A DNA stretch of 64,000 nucleotides from Pontibacter sp. E15-1 (GTDB taxonomy: Bacteria; Bacteroidota; Bacteroidia; Cytophagales; Hymenobacteraceae): NCBI RefSeq assembly GCF_022601975.1, contig NZ_JAKVIR010000030.1, positions 1 through 64,000 on the forward strand, in the 5' to 3' direction. The position numbers and the translations under genes were made by a program. The notes beneath the pieces were generated by a model, which worked only from the letters and a program-made list of their open reading frames with translations, was not told the origin of the DNA and searched no databases. Positions 2,951 through 10,628 of the stretch are shown here, piece by piece (position 1 is the stretch's first letter; every line of letters begins with the position of its first letter).

Positions 2951-5155
2951 TTACAACAGCAGCAACCCCTTCTCCCGCAATTCAAACCAACTCGGCGAGG
3001 CCAGGAACTCGGTAAAGCTCAGGTGCGCGTCCGTCGGGAAGGTTGCTTCCAGTTGCTTTAGCAGCACCGGCGCTGTATGGTCGGGGTGTATCTTTTGCAG
3101 CGCATCAAACAGCCACTGCCCGATGTTGGCAGTCGTCTTCACCTGAAAATCCTCGCCTTTCTCATAGAACGTGAGCACACAGCGCTCAATCGTCTGACCT
3201 TTTTTGGCGATCATGGTGAGCTCCAGTTCCGGCTGGTTGCCCAGCCACAATACGCGGGCGTTCGGTCGCTCTGCATCTGGTTTCTGGGGGTGCTGGATGG
3301 CTTTGTAGATCAGGTCCGGGCGGGTTTTCACACGTGGAACCTTGAAATCGAACCAGAACGAGAGCGGCTGCTCCAGTCCCACGCCGTGCATGTAATTGTA
3401 AATCGCCTTGGCCAGGCCCTGCCCGAACAGCTCGTGGTCGGTGCCGGTGGGGTCGTCGTGCCAGAGGTCGTTGTTGGCGAAGGGCCCTTCCTCCGGGCCG
3501 ACTTTCACCACGCCATACTTCTCCGGGTTCTTGCCCACGGGGCTGTGCGCCGTCATGCTGAAGCGGTGCCAGTAGCCTGACTGTATCACGTTGTTGATGA
3601 ACAGCTGCCGCACCACTTCCAGCGAGTCGACGGTTTCCTGGGCGGTCTGTGTCGGGAAGCCATACATTAGGTAGGCGTGCACCATAATGCCCGCCTGCGT
3701 GAACGCGTCGGTTACGCGGGCTACCTGCTCAATGCTCACGCCCTTCTCCATCAGTTCCAGCAGCCTGTCAGAAGCCACCTCCAGCCCCCCTGACACGGCA
3801 ATACAGCCCGAGGCGGCCAAAAGGCGGCACAAGTCCGGGGAGAATGTTTTCTCAAAGCGGATGTTACCCCACCACGAGATCTTGACACCCCTTCGGATCA
3901 ATTCAATGGCCATGTCGCGGAGCGGGGCAGGCGGCGCGGCCTCGTCCACAAAATGGAAACCGGTCTGCCCGGTCTGGGCGATGATCTGCTCGATGCGATC
4001 GACCAGCAGCGTGGCCGGGGCCACCTCGTAGCGGTTTATATAGTCTAAGGTGATGTCGCAGAAAGAGCAGCGCTTCCAGTAGCAGCCGTGGGCGATGGTG
4101 AGTTTGTTCCAGCGGCCGTCGCTCCAAAGGCGGTGCATCGGGTTGATCACGTCGATCACCGAAAGGTAGTCCTGCAACGGCAGGTCGCTGTAGTCGGGCG
4201 TCCCGATTTCAGTGTGCGGCACATCGGCGTCGGTGCTGCCGTTGCTATACTGCACCTCGCCCTCAGCCAGTACAAACGTGCGCTGCAAGGCCTCCGCGTC
4301 GCGCTGGCCCTGCAGGTGCTCCAGCAGTTTAAGCCAGGGTCCCTCGCCATCATCCAATGTCACAAAGTCGATGTAGTTGAACAGGCGCGGCTCGCGCAGG
4401 CTGCGCAGCTCGGTGTTGGGGTAGCCGCCGCCCATCGTGGTTTTTATGTGCGGATACTTCGCTTTTATATACTGCGCCATCCGGAGGCCGCCATACAGGT
4501 TGCCCGGAAAGGGTATGGAGAAGCCAACCACGGTGGGCTGCACCGCCTGCAGGCGCTCCTCCAGCAGTTCAAGCAGCAGTTGGTCCACCAGGTTGGGGGT
4601 TTCCTGCAGCGCCTCTTCCATGGGGTCGAAGTGCGTGGCCGACATGGCCAGGCTGTCGGCATAGCGGCTGAAGGCAAAGTAAGGGCAGATCGTTTCCTTA
4701 ATCAGGTCGCCGAGGTCCTCTAAATACAGCGTGGCCAGGTAGCGCGCCCTGTCGGTGATGCCCATGCTGCCAAAAGCCCAGTCGATGTCCTCCACCTGGT
4801 CGAAGCGGGCGGCCTCGGGCAGAAAGCGGCTGAAGCTGATCTGCTGTGCCAGCGTGTTGTCCTTGTTCTGGAGAAAGCGGATCACGGGCTCAATCGTCTG
4901 CAGGTACTCGCGCTTGAGGCGCAGCATCCGCAGACTATTGTCCGACAACGCATACCCGCCTGCCTCGATGGCATCGAAGATCTGTTGCAGCCCTTTGCGG
5001 CTGAACATGCGCAGCACCAGTTCTATCCCCATATCGGCCTGTGTCACCTGATGGCCGCGGCCCGTTAAAAAGCCTTTCAGGTAAGCCGTGGCGGGGTATG
5101 GGGTGTTGAGCTGGGTAAGTGGGGGCGTGATGAGCAGTATGGCTGGTTTCTCCAA
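2951..5155 (-). CDS. B12-binding-domain radical SAM protein of unknown reaction
   Basis: This 734-residue protein has an N-terminal segment of cobalamin-binding type (LLITPPLTQLNTPYPATAYL at the start; TVVGFSIPFPGNLYGGLRMA around 208-227; MGGGYPNTELR around 241) followed by a radical SAM core. The iron-sulfur cysteines are C358, C363 and C366 in HGCYWKRCSFCD, a CX4CX2C spacing where the textbook motif is CX3CX2C. GGLEVASDRLL and a long C-terminal extension follow. The class carries out methyl transfers or rearrangements using SAM and sometimes cobalamin. The substrate is not evident and no partner peptide or enzyme gene adjoins it. The ATG at 5155 directly precedes the hydrophobic first strand of the domain. 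Confidence 0.85.
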   Translation of the reverse strand: MEKPAILLITPPLTQLNTPYPATAYLKGFLTGRGHQVTQADMGIELVLRMFSRKGLQQIFDAIEAGGYALSDNSLRMLRLKREYLQTIEPVIRFLQNKDNTLAQQISFSRFLPEAARFDQVEDIDWAFGSMGITDRARYLATLYLEDLGDLIKETICPYFAFSRYADSLAMSATHFDPMEEALQETPNLVDQLLLELLEERLQAVQPTVVGFSIPFPGNLYGGLRMAQYIKAKYPHIKTTMGGGYPNTELRSLREPRLFNYIDFVTLDDGEGPWLKLLEHLQGQRDAEALQRTFVLAEGEVQYSNGSTDADVPHTEIGTPDYSDLPLQDYLSVIDVINPMHRLWSDGRWNKLTIAHGCYWKRCSFCDITLDYINRYEVAPATLLVDRIEQIIAQTGQTGFHFVDEAAPPAPLRDMAIELIRRGVKISWWGNIRFEKTFSPDLCRLLAASGCIAVSGGLEVASDRLLELMEKGVSIEQVARVTDAFTQAGIMVHAYLMYGFPTQTAQETVDSLEVVRQLFINNVIQSGYWHRFSMTAHSPVGKNPEKYGVVKVGPEEGPFANNDLWHDDPTGTDHELFGQGLAKAIYNYMHGVGLEQPLSFWFDFKVPRVKTRPDLIYKAIQHPQKPDAERPNARVLWLGNQPELELTMIAKKGQTIERCVLTFYEKGEDFQVKTTANIGQWLFDALQKIHPDHTAPVLLKQLEATFPTDAHLSFTEFLASPSWFELREKGLLLL

Positions 5156-7029: not shown

Positions 7030-7192
7030 AGAGCATGTTTAAATTTCGTTTTTGGAAGCGAAAATTGTTCAGGAAGGGTTCTGGCGAAGCGTTTTTTGAG
7101 CCGCATAGCAGCGCTATGGGGTGATAAAAAGGCGAAGTCAGGTTCCTTAATGAACAATTTGCAGCCCAAAAGATGAATTTTAAACATGCTCT
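7030..7192. mobile_element. 163-bp foldback (MITE-like) element
   Basis: The element is bounded by perfect 14-bp inverted ends, AGAGCATGTTTAAA at 7030-7043 and TTTAAACATGCTCT at 7179-7192. The symmetry continues inward imperfectly (AAAATTGTTCA against TGAACAATTT, GGAAGGGTTC against GGTTCCTT) to a central CATAGCAGCGCTATG hairpin. It has no coding capacity. Related half-sites occur at 13180-13218 and 29057-29154. Its right end overlaps the stop codon of the btuG-like gene. Confidence 0.8.
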
Positions 7193-8298
7193 TAGTTAAA
7201 CACGAAGCCGTTCGGCCCAATGCCGACTTTAAACTCTTTCACCTTGGTGCCATCCGGCTGGTAAATGAAAACTGTTCCATCGCCGGAAAACCCGTTTTGG
7301 TCGGAGCCATAGATGTAGCCGTTGTCGGGGTCTATGCCCAGGCCGTAGAAGCTCCGGTTGATGAGGGGAGTAGAGGCAAGGCTGGTGGCACTGGCGCTTT
7401 GGGCATAGGTGGCACCCTGATAGTTGTAGTATAACTTCGCGCCGTCACCGGTTATGGCCAGGTTCCCGGGCGAAGCCTGGTTGCTGCCAAAGGTAAGTGT
7501 GTTCAGCACGGTGCTGTTGGCCGTGTTGATGGCAATCAGGGCACCGGGGGTTGTCTCGCTGTAGTTCACGGTCCAGTCGGAGTTGTACACGGTTCTGCCC
7601 TTGGCAAGCACCCAGAGCCTTTTGTCTGCGTCCAGTTCCAGTTCTGCCGGTCCGTCCGTCACTGTGATATCACGTTCCACCACGTCGGTGCTGGTATTGA
7701 TGACGGTGACCACGTTAGACCCGTTGATGGCGACGTACAGCTTCCCGTCCGCTACCAGCAGCTCCTCGGGCAGTGGCCCAACAGGTATGGTTTTCACCAC
7801 TTGCAAGGTTTTCAGGTCAATAACCGACACCTGGCCCGGCTGCCCATACGTTATCCACTCCGAAACATAGGCTTTGTCTGCGCTGGCGGCGGCAAAAAAG
7901 CGCGGCTGCTTCAGCTCTACCGCGCCCTCCGTCTGAAAGGTATAGGCATTCACCACCTCCAGCTTGTTGCTGTTGTTGGCCACAATATAAGCGCGGTCGC
8001 CTACAATGTCCAGGTCCATCACCACATCCCCCAGCGGGCGGTCGTTATTGGCTTTTTGCGAAATGCTGTTGATAACCGTCTGGTTGGCGCTATCGCTTAA
8101 GAAAGAAATGGAGCCGTTTGGTGTGCCGTAGTTGCCCTCGTTCAGGATAAAGACGCCGTGCTGGTCGTAGGGGCCCCGCACCTCGGTGCTGGTGGCAGGC
8201 GTTACGTCGTTGTCTTTATCGCAGCTGGTAAGGCCAAGAGAGCCGGAAAAAAGCGCTGTAGCCACAAAGAGGCTACGGAAGAAATTACTGTTTTTCAT
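7192..8298 (-). CDS. BtuG-like surface lipoprotein, YncE/DUF5074 beta-propeller
   Basis: This 368-residue protein has a lipoprotein signal (SGSLGLTSC, lipidated Cys26) followed by DKDND, an acidic tail of the kind linked to surface export in Bacteroidota. The mature part opens with GVFILNEGNYGTPNGSISF, typical of DUF5074/YncE propellers, and repeats blade motifs such as VSVIDLKTLQVVKTIPVGPLP and VTVINTSTDVV. It lies directly downstream of a TonB receptor gene under a cobalamin riboswitch. In Bacteroides the equivalent propeller, BtuG, binds B12 on the surface and feeds BtuB. The B12 role here is inferred from that synteny. The stop codon falls at the tip of the foldback element. Confidence 0.75.
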   Translation of the reverse strand: MKNSNFFRSLFVATALFSGSLGLTSCDKDNDVTPATSTEVRGPYDQHGVFILNEGNYGTPNGSISFLSDSANQTVINSISQKANNDRPLGDVVMDLDIVGDRAYIVANNSNKLEVVNAYTFQTEGAVELKQPRFFAAASADKAYVSEWITYGQPGQVSVIDLKTLQVVKTIPVGPLPEELLVADGKLYVAINGSNVVTVINTSTDVVERDITVTDGPAELELDADKRLWVLAKGRTVYNSDWTVNYSETTPGALIAINTANSTVLNTLTFGSNQASPGNLAITGDGAKLYYNYQGATYAQSASATSLASTPLINRSFYGLGIDPDNGYIYGSDQNGFSGDGTVFIYQPDGTKVKEFKVGIGPNGFVFN

Positions 8299-8392
8299 GG
8301 TATGTATTGGTATAGGTTGGTTTAGTTGCTATAAGATGATGCTCGGGAAGGGCAGTGATACCCGTGTGCCGGGTACCGGCGATTTCGTGCTG

Positions 8393-10315
8393 TTACGGCA
8401 GGCTGAAGCGTATGCTAAAGGTATAGCTGCGTGGTGGCATGGCCCGGTACGCCATGGTCTGGTACACGGTATTCGTCACGTTGTCGGAGCGGAGCGTGAG
8501 CAGGAGCGGGGTTTCCCAGAGCTCCAGTTTTTTGCTCAGGGCCAGCTGCAACAGCAGGAAGCCGTTTAGGCTGGTGGTTTCGGAGTTGGTGGTATAGCGC
8601 AGGCCGGTATAGTTCAGGTTGCCCAGCAGCGCCCAGTTGTGGTACTGCGCCGTTGTAGCGAAGATGGCCTTGTGCAAGGGCACATACATCAGTTGCTTGC
8701 CTTTGTCGCCTGTGCCGTCGTATACCTTCTCCTGCTCCGAGGAGGTATAGGTATAGCCGGCAGAACCGCTCAGCTTCATCTCGCCCACCGTGGCTGTTAC
8801 CTGGCTGCTGAGCTCCACCCCCCTCGACCGTACCTTCTGCAGGTTGGCGGGCCTCCAACGGCCTATGTCGTCCGGTGCCCACTGGATCCAATCATCGATC
8901 AGCATGTGGTATGCGGTTGCCTCTGTCTCCAGCAGCAGGGTGCTGCCCAATGGCAGCACGTGGCGCAGGCCACTTTCGTAGCTCCAGCCCTGCTCAGGCC
9001 TCAGGTCGGGGTTGCCCGCGCCAATCCAGTAGCGGTCGTTTAGGGTAGGCACGCGGTAACTGCCCGAGGCGCTTCCTTTCAGGGATAGCCGGTGTTGGTG
9101 CTGCTTGTAAAACGTCCAGTCGAAGCCCAGCGCTGGCGTGGGCATGGGGCTATACCCCTCCACCAGCGCCTGTCGCAGATTCAGGCTCAGGGCCAGCGGG
9201 GCTACGGGGTTATAGCGGAAAAGCGCGAACACGGCAGCCCGGTTCTCCTGCTGCTGTCCGGCGTAGCCATCGTTCTCGGCCACAAAATGCTGTAGGTTTA
9301 TACCCCCGCGCAGGCTCCAGTTGCTGCCCTTGGTATAGGTTTGCTCCGCCTGTAGCTGGTAGGTCTGCACGTCGGCTTCGGAGTTGGTGGTGTTGTCGGT
9401 ATAGTGCAGGTAATCTTTGAAGTAAGCCGCCTTCACGTCTGTCTGGCCCCAGCGGCTGCTATGTTTCAGTTCCGCTAGCAGCCGCAGGTTTTCGTCCTTT
9501 TGCGCCGCGTTATCGGGGGCAGAGCCCATGGCGGGCTGCAGGTCGCGGGCGGTGTAGGTATACCAGCCGTGCAGCGCCACTTGCGTTTTGTCGGTAAGGT
9601 GATAGGTGATATCCTGGGTGATGCCGTGCTGCTGCAGGGCGGCGTACTCCTGCTTTACCCTGGGTGTCTGATAGCGGGAAAGGTCGGTATAGGTGAAGTC
9701 GTTCCCGGCGAGGCGCAGGTAGGCGCTGGCGCCCACCTCCAGCTTCTGGCTGCCATAGCTGAGGCGGCCACTGCCAAAGTAACGGCCAAAGCTCCCCGCT
9801 TCCAGTTGCGCCTCCCACCCAAGCCCTTCGCCTTTGTACTCGGGAGAGTGGAGCAGCACCGCCCCACCGATCGCGCCGCTTCCGTAGGTGGCCGCTGCCG
9901 CACCGTGCTGCACCTCCACTGCGCCGATGCCACCTACCGGCAGCGTCGAGAAGTCGGTTTGCCCCAGCGTGGCCGACGCAATATTCAGCCCGTTCCAAAG
10001 CACGGCGGTTTGAGACGCGTTGGTCCCCCGAAACGACACGGAAGACAAGCCGCTGGCACCGTAGCTTTTGAAGTAGAGGGGGGTGCGGGCCTGCAACGCA
10101 TCTGCCAGCGAGCCGGAGGCATAGGTGCGGAGGTAGCTGCTGTCGATGGCGCTCACACGGCTGCCCGCGGCGTATACCTCGGCAGGCCTGCCAAACACCT
10201 CCACGGTGCGCAGTTGGTGCACAGTAGAATCGGGCTGCTGCGCCACTGCCGTAAACGACAAGGCCAGCAGGCAGGCGGTTAAGCCCCAAAAATCACGGAA
10301 AGAAAATAATGCCAC
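8393..10315 (-). CDS. btuB: TonB-dependent outer-membrane receptor, BtuB-like
   Basis: This 640-residue receptor has a signal peptide (ends TAVAQQ), a plug domain (LADALQARTPLYFKSYGASG, SVSFRGTNASQTAVLWNGLN, VGGIGAVEVQHGAAAATYGS, GAIGGAVLLHSPEY) and a beta-barrel ending in a C-terminal aromatic strand (YTFSIRFSLP). The length and plug fit BtuB-type transporters, which import cobalamin using TonB energy. The cobalamin riboswitch about 110 nt upstream on the same strand supports the substrate. The start is GTG at 10315: an in-frame stop at 10328 and the signal peptide leave no other choice. It is the first gene of a pair with the propeller lipoprotein, 94 bp downstream. Confidence 0.88.
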   Translation of the reverse strand: MALFSFRDFWGLTACLLALSFTAVAQQPDSTVHQLRTVEVFGRPAEVYAAGSRVSAIDSSYLRTYASGSLADALQARTPLYFKSYGASGLSSVSFRGTNASQTAVLWNGLNIASATLGQTDFSTLPVGGIGAVEVQHGAAAATYGSGAIGGAVLLHSPEYKGEGLGWEAQLEAGSFGRYFGSGRLSYGSQKLEVGASAYLRLAGNDFTYTDLSRYQTPRVKQEYAALQQHGITQDITYHLTDKTQVALHGWYTYTARDLQPAMGSAPDNAAQKDENLRLLAELKHSSRWGQTDVKAAYFKDYLHYTDNTTNSEADVQTYQLQAEQTYTKGSNWSLRGGINLQHFVAENDGYAGQQQENRAAVFALFRYNPVAPLALSLNLRQALVEGYSPMPTPALGFDWTFYKQHQHRLSLKGSASGSYRVPTLNDRYWIGAGNPDLRPEQGWSYESGLRHVLPLGSTLLLETEATAYHMLIDDWIQWAPDDIGRWRPANLQKVRSRGVELSSQVTATVGEMKLSGSAGYTYTSSEQEKVYDGTGDKGKQLMYVPLHKAIFATTAQYHNWALLGNLNYTGLRYTTNSETTSLNGFLLLQLALSKKLELWETPLLLTLRSDNVTNTVYQTMAYRAMPPRSYTFSIRFSLP

Positions 10316-10427
10316 GTACCCGGTTGCTTAAATCCCGAAGCATGCAAAACAGGCAGAAAGGCAGAGACAGCAAGCGCTAACATAGCGGAGGCCGTGCAGC
10401 TTTTTACCCGAAAGCATACGACAAATC

Positions 10428-10612
10428 AGTGTCGGACTGGCAGGTCTCCTGGCTCTCTTCAGTTAGCTCGCCTTCCCATGCAGCAAGTGCCGCACAGTGG
10501 CCGTTGGTATGGGCTAACCCCTTTTGTGAAGATGACAGTTGCGGGAACAGCACAGGTTTTGCACCTGTTTCCCTTTTAAGGCTCTTACCACGGCAGTAGT
10601 AAGCGCCACCAA
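10428..10612 (-). promoter_or_regulatory. Cobalamin (AdoCbl) riboswitch
   Basis: On the minus strand the hallmark B12 box AGCCAGGAGACCTGCC lies at 10439-10454. It is preceded by GGGAAACAGGTGCAAAACC, GTTCCCGCAACTGT, GCCACTGTG and CATGGGAAGGCG in the order of the class. The element starts just after a promoter box and ends about 110 nt before the receptor gene. No U-tailed terminator follows the aptamer, so control is probably at translation, shutting down btuB when cobalamin is plentiful. Boundaries are approximate. Confidence 0.93.
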
Positions 10613-10620
10613 TCTGAGAG

Positions 10621-10628
10621 CAAAAGTA
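10621..10628 (-). promoter_or_regulatory. -7 box for the riboswitch-btuB transcript
   Basis: TACTTTTG on the minus strand matches TAnnTTTG and would start transcription just before the aptamer. The -33 area, about 19 bp further upstream, falls inside a heptanucleotide repeat array and has no TTG. Confidence 0.55.

Follow-up and report, generated by a model that had tools for sequence, protein, structure and literature searches.

A btuB-btuG operon under a cobalamin riboswitch in Pontibacter sp. E15-1, its spread across Bacteroidota, and a leader with two candidate P13 hairpins

A 64,000-nt stretch of DNA from Pontibacter sp. E15-1 (assembly GCF_022601975.1, contig NZ_JAKVIR010000030.1, positions 1 to 64,000; hereafter, the window) was analyzed around a locus predicted to serve the uptake of vitamin B12. 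On the minus strand, read from 5′ to 3′, this locus contains a cobalamin riboswitch aptamer (10422..10628), the btuB gene of a TonB-dependent receptor of the Bacteroidota BtuB type (8393..10315; GTG start codon, 640 aa) and, after an intergenic gap of 94 nt, the btuG gene of a lipoprotein with a seven-bladed DUF5074 propeller (7192..8298; 368 aa). The operon comprises these two genes only, and no BtuH, BtuF, BtuC or BtuD gene lies within it. An earlier annotation made from the letters alone (the sequence-only reading) had placed a riboswitch-controlled receptor and propeller at 7192-10612. The riboswitch is borne out, since the match to RF00174 spans the whole model (positions 1-189), including the aptamer core, and scores 99.5 bits (gathering score 31.5; E 1.1e-23); it is the sole RF00174 match found in the source genome. 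The gene part of that span also stands, but its upper end cuts 16 nt from the aptamer, whose true end is at 10628. It is very probable that the locus is a B12-repressed operon for cobamide uptake across the outer membrane.

The receptor contains the Pfam domains Plug and TonB_dep_Rec_b-barrel. Its best solved relatives are the BtuB proteins of the BtuBG complexes of Bacteroides thetaiotaomicron, with BtuB3 (8p97_A) at E 1.7e-56, 8p98_A and 8bmx_C also at about 1e-56, and 8blw_A at 1.6e-16. The scores of the Escherichia coli-type BtuB models TIGR01779 and PRK10641 remain below their cut-offs (104 vs 599.7 and 83.3 vs 836 bits, respectively), and siderophore and heme receptor models match the protein too, weakly. 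Loop EL8, which aids the ejection of B12 in B. thetaiotaomicron, aligns without gaps with that of BtuB3; Tyr538 of the latter is replaced by Trp, and 55 of 63 BtuG-linked BtuBs have an aromatic residue there.

The product of btuG matches DUF5074 (Pfam) with 87.2 bits (cut-off 27.2). It had been described as a YncE/DUF5074 propeller, of which the second name is confirmed; the first denotes the fold class only, as the NCBI YncE model NF052280 gives 31.7 bits against a cut-off of 400. The best solved relatives are BtuG3 (8okv_B, E 5.3e-25) and BtuG2 (E about 1e-23). The check proposed in the sequence-only reading, modelling of the propeller against BtuG, was run with an alignment of 55 proteins and gave a confident model (mean predicted local distance difference test score, pLDDT, 92.9; predicted template modelling score, pTM, 0.86), whose structural matches are headed by BtuG entries. 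In VIA-align, rows 1-11 are all BtuG (Z 42.0 to 37.6), the top row being 8bmz_A (Z 42.0, root-mean-square deviation 1.9 over 312 residues, 27% identity), and the first other rows are an archaeal propeller (Z 32.1) and then BtuK1 (Z 30.7); in Foldseek, rows 1-16 are BtuG. The protein carries a lipobox (LTSC followed by DKDNDV) whose Cys, C26, is invariant in 55/55 aligned homologues, with an acidic residue at most six positions further on in 52/55. This combination of lipobox and surface export signal agrees with the surface-type lipoprotein proposed earlier, and location at the cell surface is predicted. The assignment of a BtuB/BtuG pair under a cobalamin riboswitch is thus backed by sequence, fold, lipoprotein signal, gene order and the riboswitch.

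There is no second match to the propeller in the source genome (5.59 Mb). A scan for related loci returned six of them, in which the closest named relatives of the propeller come from Pontibacter diazotrophicus (best segment 62%), P. anaerobius (61%) and P. pamirensis (50%), followed by Hymenobacter; a wider genome search was used to assess breadth (see below). By sequence, the nearest named relatives thus belong to Pontibacter and Hymenobacter and not to gut Bacteroides. Pontibacter is placed in the Hymenobacteraceae (Cytophagales), and the labels "non-gut" and "aerobic-type", given earlier to the source organism, would follow from this relatedness.

In cobalamin riboswitches, loop L5 (consensus UCCCG) forms a kissing interaction with loop L13 of hairpin P13 (PMC10653944, PMC9600662). 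L5 of the window (UUCCCG, 10542..10547, minus strand) is complementary to CGGG of the L13 loop in the leader. Riboswitches for the leader comparisons and the phylum survey were located by a two-motif pattern that recovers 33/33 known riboswitch loci and gives 2 matches per 402,521 shuffled bases; chance matches inside genes, two of them within the window, occurred and were excluded. The 167 pattern matches included 13 without L5, some of them due to chance, and the remainder yielded 148 distinct leaders. Among these, 118 have CCCG in L5, of which 74 carry a CGGG loop (97 a three-base complement, 3 a CGCG loop), and 24 have CGCG in L5, of which 18 carry a CGCG loop (1 a CGGG loop). In the other 44 of the 118 CCCG leaders the full four-base complement is not in the strongest hairpin, as chosen by the script. 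Single compensations, CTCG/CGAG and CGTG/CACG, fit the same pairing. The L5/L13 kissing pair therefore covaries in nature. Loop GUGCA of the preceding stem was also considered as the kissing partner and dropped, since it varies, the L13 loop is constant and L5 corresponds to the UCCCG of PMC10653944.

Between the aptamer and btuB, the Pontibacter leader may adopt two arrangements, both on the minus strand. The first consists of hairpin P13a (10399..10415; arms GCUUU and AAAGC around the loop CGGGUAA, L13a) and a second L13-like hairpin, P13b (10325..10342; arms UGCUU and AAGCA around the loop CGGGAUUU), whose 3′ end is located 9 nt upstream of the btuB start codon; in 30 distinct leaders, each of them is paired in 99.3% of cells. 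The second is a long hairpin (10340..10419) with arms GUAUGC (10414-10419) and GCAUGC (10340-10345). GUAUGC is paired with GCAUGC in 100% of cells and the GGGUA arm with its partner in 93.4%; this long hairpin is also the RNAalifold consensus of the leader stretch. Because the alternative hairpin excludes both P13a and P13b, a bistable switch is suggested, on the basis of conservation and not of covariation, and we would give it at best an even chance.

Reading of the sequences shows P13b in 31 of the 33 leaders from the genus, two of which do not differ from each other over the stretch. These 33 comprise 22 Pontibacter leaders, all with P13b, and a second set of 11, of which 9 have it; an automatic count gave 7 of the 11, because it used a stretch ending at the predicted start. 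A CGGG hairpin is present at least once in 22/22 Pontibacter leaders and 36/45 others (11% and 10% of shuffles, which preserved single-base composition only), and two such hairpins in 20/22 and 1/45 (0.5% and 1.4% of the same shuffles). The two Pontibacter misses, L002 and L046, result from an open reading frame start called upstream, and P13b is present in both. Two blocks of the leader are conserved at nearly every position, with variable spacing between them. A small peptide encoded by these conserved blocks was considered and dropped, since third codon positions are conserved too and the block spacing changes by steps other than multiples of three.

These data have to be weighed against a simpler possibility, for which we regard the chances as evenly divided, namely that the leader contains a single P13, as in other Bacteroidota, and that P13b is a start-site hairpin or a relic that does not kiss L5. 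Several observations weigh against the switch and fit this simpler leader. No two-sided covariation was seen for P13a, P13b or the long hairpin among the 30 distinct leaders, the only two-sided changes in the alignment falling in a hairpin between P13a and P13b, and six leaders gave unremarkable fold energies (z -0.38 to -1.69). P13b is missing from two of the 33 same-genus leaders, and its sequence was found in none of 23 leaders of three sister genera, one of which (L162) has another CGGG hairpin. Against a single P13 stand the P13b stem and its CGGG, which are almost invariant in the 30 distinct leaders beside a variable preceding stretch, and the rarity of two CGGG hairpins in shuffled Pontibacter leaders. 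A comparison of constrained with free fold energies is a weak guide, as adding a constraint can only leave a fold equally or less stable.

If the bistable switch exists, its states may be assigned by analogy with the corrinoid riboswitch of Priestia megaterium metE, in which P13 is proposed to compete with an alternative pairing and with a hairpin further downstream, each excluding the others (PMC10653944). In the on state, the long hairpin would leave the start region free, whereas in the off state P13a would kiss L5 and P13b would be closed at the start; we infer these two states from conservation alone. The downstream hairpin of metE is a terminator, whereas its counterpart in Pontibacter would be a start-codon hairpin repeating the P13 loop. 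A more elaborate version, which we consider doubtful, is a doubled kissing hairpin, in which L5 would have two possible partners, L13a near the aptamer and L13b next to the start of btuB, and the long hairpin, by pairing the 5′ arms of P13a and P13b with each other, would dissolve both hairpins. One aptamer choosing between two L13 partners is not described in the available text of PMC10653944 and PMC9600662. In a sister genus, the stretch preceding the btuB start (CUCUGCUUU) looks, by eye, complementary to the 3′ side of P13 (AAAGCAG), and constitutes a different candidate anti-P13 element (L153, L171-L173, L175, L183, L198, L202, L203, L205, L209, L210 and L214).

The arrangement of riboswitch, btuB and btuG is common among relatives. 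Within the order, 27 of 29 genomes (the source genome among them) have a cobalamin riboswitch, as have 60/60 sampled genomes of the family. Of 33 riboswitch loci read in detail in 26 relatives within the order, 23 have the order riboswitch-btuB-btuG: one per genome in 18/18 same-genus genomes, plus five genomes of other families. Of the remaining 10, two have btuB and one has btuG without the partner gene; in the others the riboswitch precedes a short gene (four), a gene that we take to be metE (two) or other genes (one). Among 148 Bacteroidota genomes, 62 contain a DUF5074 match (52 above the cut-off, including the source genome). In the 39 strongest neighbourhoods outside the source genome, with matches followed down to E 8.6e-9, the three elements occur in this order in 33; four others have a riboswitch and btuG without btuB, one the propeller alone and one the riboswitch alone. 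The sequence-only reading had presented the locus as the Bacteroides pair in a non-gut, aerobic-type genome. The arrangement is phylum-wide, hence the pair is no oddity and no unusual transfer of a gut system is indicated.

Several variants were noted during this survey. A riboswitch precedes a BtuG-like gene, with no BtuB detected between them, in L058, L113, L123, L130 and L143, and BtuG-like proteins of about 440-450 aa (usually 350-370) are encoded beside btuB in L114, L118, L121, L126, L128, L131 and L139. Four Pontibacter relatives (L062, L065, L067, L070) have a second cobalamin riboswitch before a 133-aa gene; the one tested is a 4HBT thioesterase by Pfam and the others are alike by eye. 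Inspection by eye also places these genes near fatty-acid genes. A similar gene is present in a riboswitch operon of another family (L063, 4820-5212). L006 (PBYL01000192.1), a contig labelled as part of a Thalassovita metagenome-assembled genome, has a Bacteroidota-type riboswitch-btuB-btuG operon and is probably mis-binned.

The source organism probably imports B12, because its genome combines one cobalamin riboswitch with genes for MetH and methylmalonyl-CoA mutase, and CbiC was not found. MetH occurs in 28 of the 29 genomes of the order, including the source genome, where contigs C3 and C34 carry the mutase matches. A search for CbiC, which marks corrin-ring synthesis, found it in none of the 29 and in 7 of 14 control genomes. 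A single strong FecCD permease is encoded on contig C4, adjoining a periplasmic binding protein. Close to the operon, the window encodes a radical SAM (S-adenosylmethionine) protein (2951-5155, minus strand) with a sub-threshold match to a B12-binding domain. Its gene stays near btuB-btuG at 18/18 same-genus loci and in three named Pontibacter, as well as at three more loci of the family (two named Hymenobacter and L141); it is possible that this protein is a B12 user linked to B12 uptake.

The operon reading thus draws on sequence and predicted-fold homology, gene order, the riboswitch, the covariation of L5 with L13, and B12-dependent genes in a genome in which CbiC was not found. By analogy with the Bacteroides systems, low intracellular cobamide would lead to the expression of btuB and btuG, and BtuG would be exported as a lipid-anchored lid over the BtuB barrel. 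The propeller face would capture a cobamide, close, and hand it over to BtuB within a BtuBG complex, ejection being aided by loop EL8; TonB would then drive the cobamide into the periplasm, from where an ATP-binding cassette (ABC) system encoded elsewhere would carry it on. With plentiful cobamide, the aptamer would be bound, L5 would kiss L13 of P13 and expression would be switched off.

Some observations weigh against this scheme. The identity of the propeller to BtuG2 is low (26-27%). An inner-membrane B12 transporter is not part of the operon, and the best candidate, that of contig C4, has no riboswitch match. The EL8 aromatic was tried and dropped as a mark of BtuG-linked BtuBs: two BtuBs without BtuG show Phe and a gap, so that it is present in one of the two and does not discriminate. 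A further point concerns the pocket of BtuG2, which hydrogen-bonds B12 through blades 1 to 4 and for which Trp194, Trp272, Tyr316, Tyr335 and Tyr239 have been named (PMC10404256). When BtuG3, the propeller of the window and 68 homologues are aligned (70 rows), Trp194 is replaced in the window by Asn, Trp272 by Ser and Tyr335 by Phe, and only Tyr316 is clearly retained; position 239 is ambiguous (Thr in this alignment, Tyr in the HMMER alignment). The near-invariant positions in the 55-protein alignment include N53, E54, G55, N84, P132 and R133.

These replacements fit a scheme, in our opinion rather unlikely, in which BtuB performs the uptake and the propeller is an accessory or lid of lower affinity, lacking the extreme affinity for B12 of gut BtuG2. 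It has to contend with the BtuG-type fold and gene pairing and with the pocket positions themselves: Tyr316, retained in the window, is present in 49 of 69 rows, 68 of the 69 have an aromatic residue at position 335, and BtuG3, solved with B12 (8okv), has Ala in place of Trp272. Import of a non-cobamide substrate, e.g. iron chelates, with an incidental riboswitch, is highly improbable: curated vitamin-B12-receptor models far below their cut-offs and weak matches to siderophore and heme receptor models would allow it, but the closest solved relatives are Bacteroides BtuB and BtuG and a cobalamin riboswitch accompanies btuB-btuG across the phylum. The cobamide uptake operon remains our preferred interpretation.

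The btuG stop codon (7192-7194) falls within a near-palindromic element of about 167 bp (window 7030-7196) situated where the gene ends. The genome has at least 40 direct-strand matches to this element, 37 of them nearly full length, among the 40 of 100 candidates that were scored. The element looks like a miniature inverted-repeat transposable element (MITE).

The locus resembles BtuB1G1, BtuB2G2 and BtuB3G3 of B. thetaiotaomicron in its adjacent btuB and btuG, DUF5074-type lipoprotein propeller and cobalamin riboswitch, with no CbiC found. It differs in being a single two-gene locus, whereas B. thetaiotaomicron has three multi-gene btuBG loci (PMC10404256), and also in several changed pocket aromatics, in the position of btuB ahead of btuG and in the lack of BtuH, BtuF, BtuC and BtuD genes in the operon. 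With E. coli BtuB it shares the receptor superfamily and the riboswitch class, in which L5 kisses L13 (PMC10653944); unlike E. coli BtuB, the receptor of the window falls below the NCBI BtuB model cut-offs. This kind of system is already known, and the operon is a largely expected example, because riboswitch-btuB-btuG is common across the phylum. What is new is the phylum-wide spread of the btuB-btuG unit, and the Pontibacter leader. We found no paper on the Pontibacter btuB riboswitch or on BtuG in environmental groups in the open-access library searched.

A survey of 313 human gut genomes called BtuG exclusive to Bacteroidetes (PMC6143338). BtuG is treated as advantageous in the gut (PMC6143338, PMC10404256) and is said not to occur in other BtuB-using organisms (PMC12751083). 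For another B12-binding family, DUF4465, a 2026 paper argues that scavenging of this type extends beyond the gut (PMC13398666); the present data point the same way for BtuG, for which a picture centred on the gut is too narrow. Because the unit is present in all same-genus relatives examined and in most DUF5074 neighbourhoods sampled, and CbiC in 0/29 genomes, lid-assisted B12 capture looks like a general trait of Bacteroidota and not one made in the gut. In organisms with a single locus, BtuG can be tested free of redundant copies, and the double-P13 leader would serve as a natural test case for a kissing loop that drives alternative folds.

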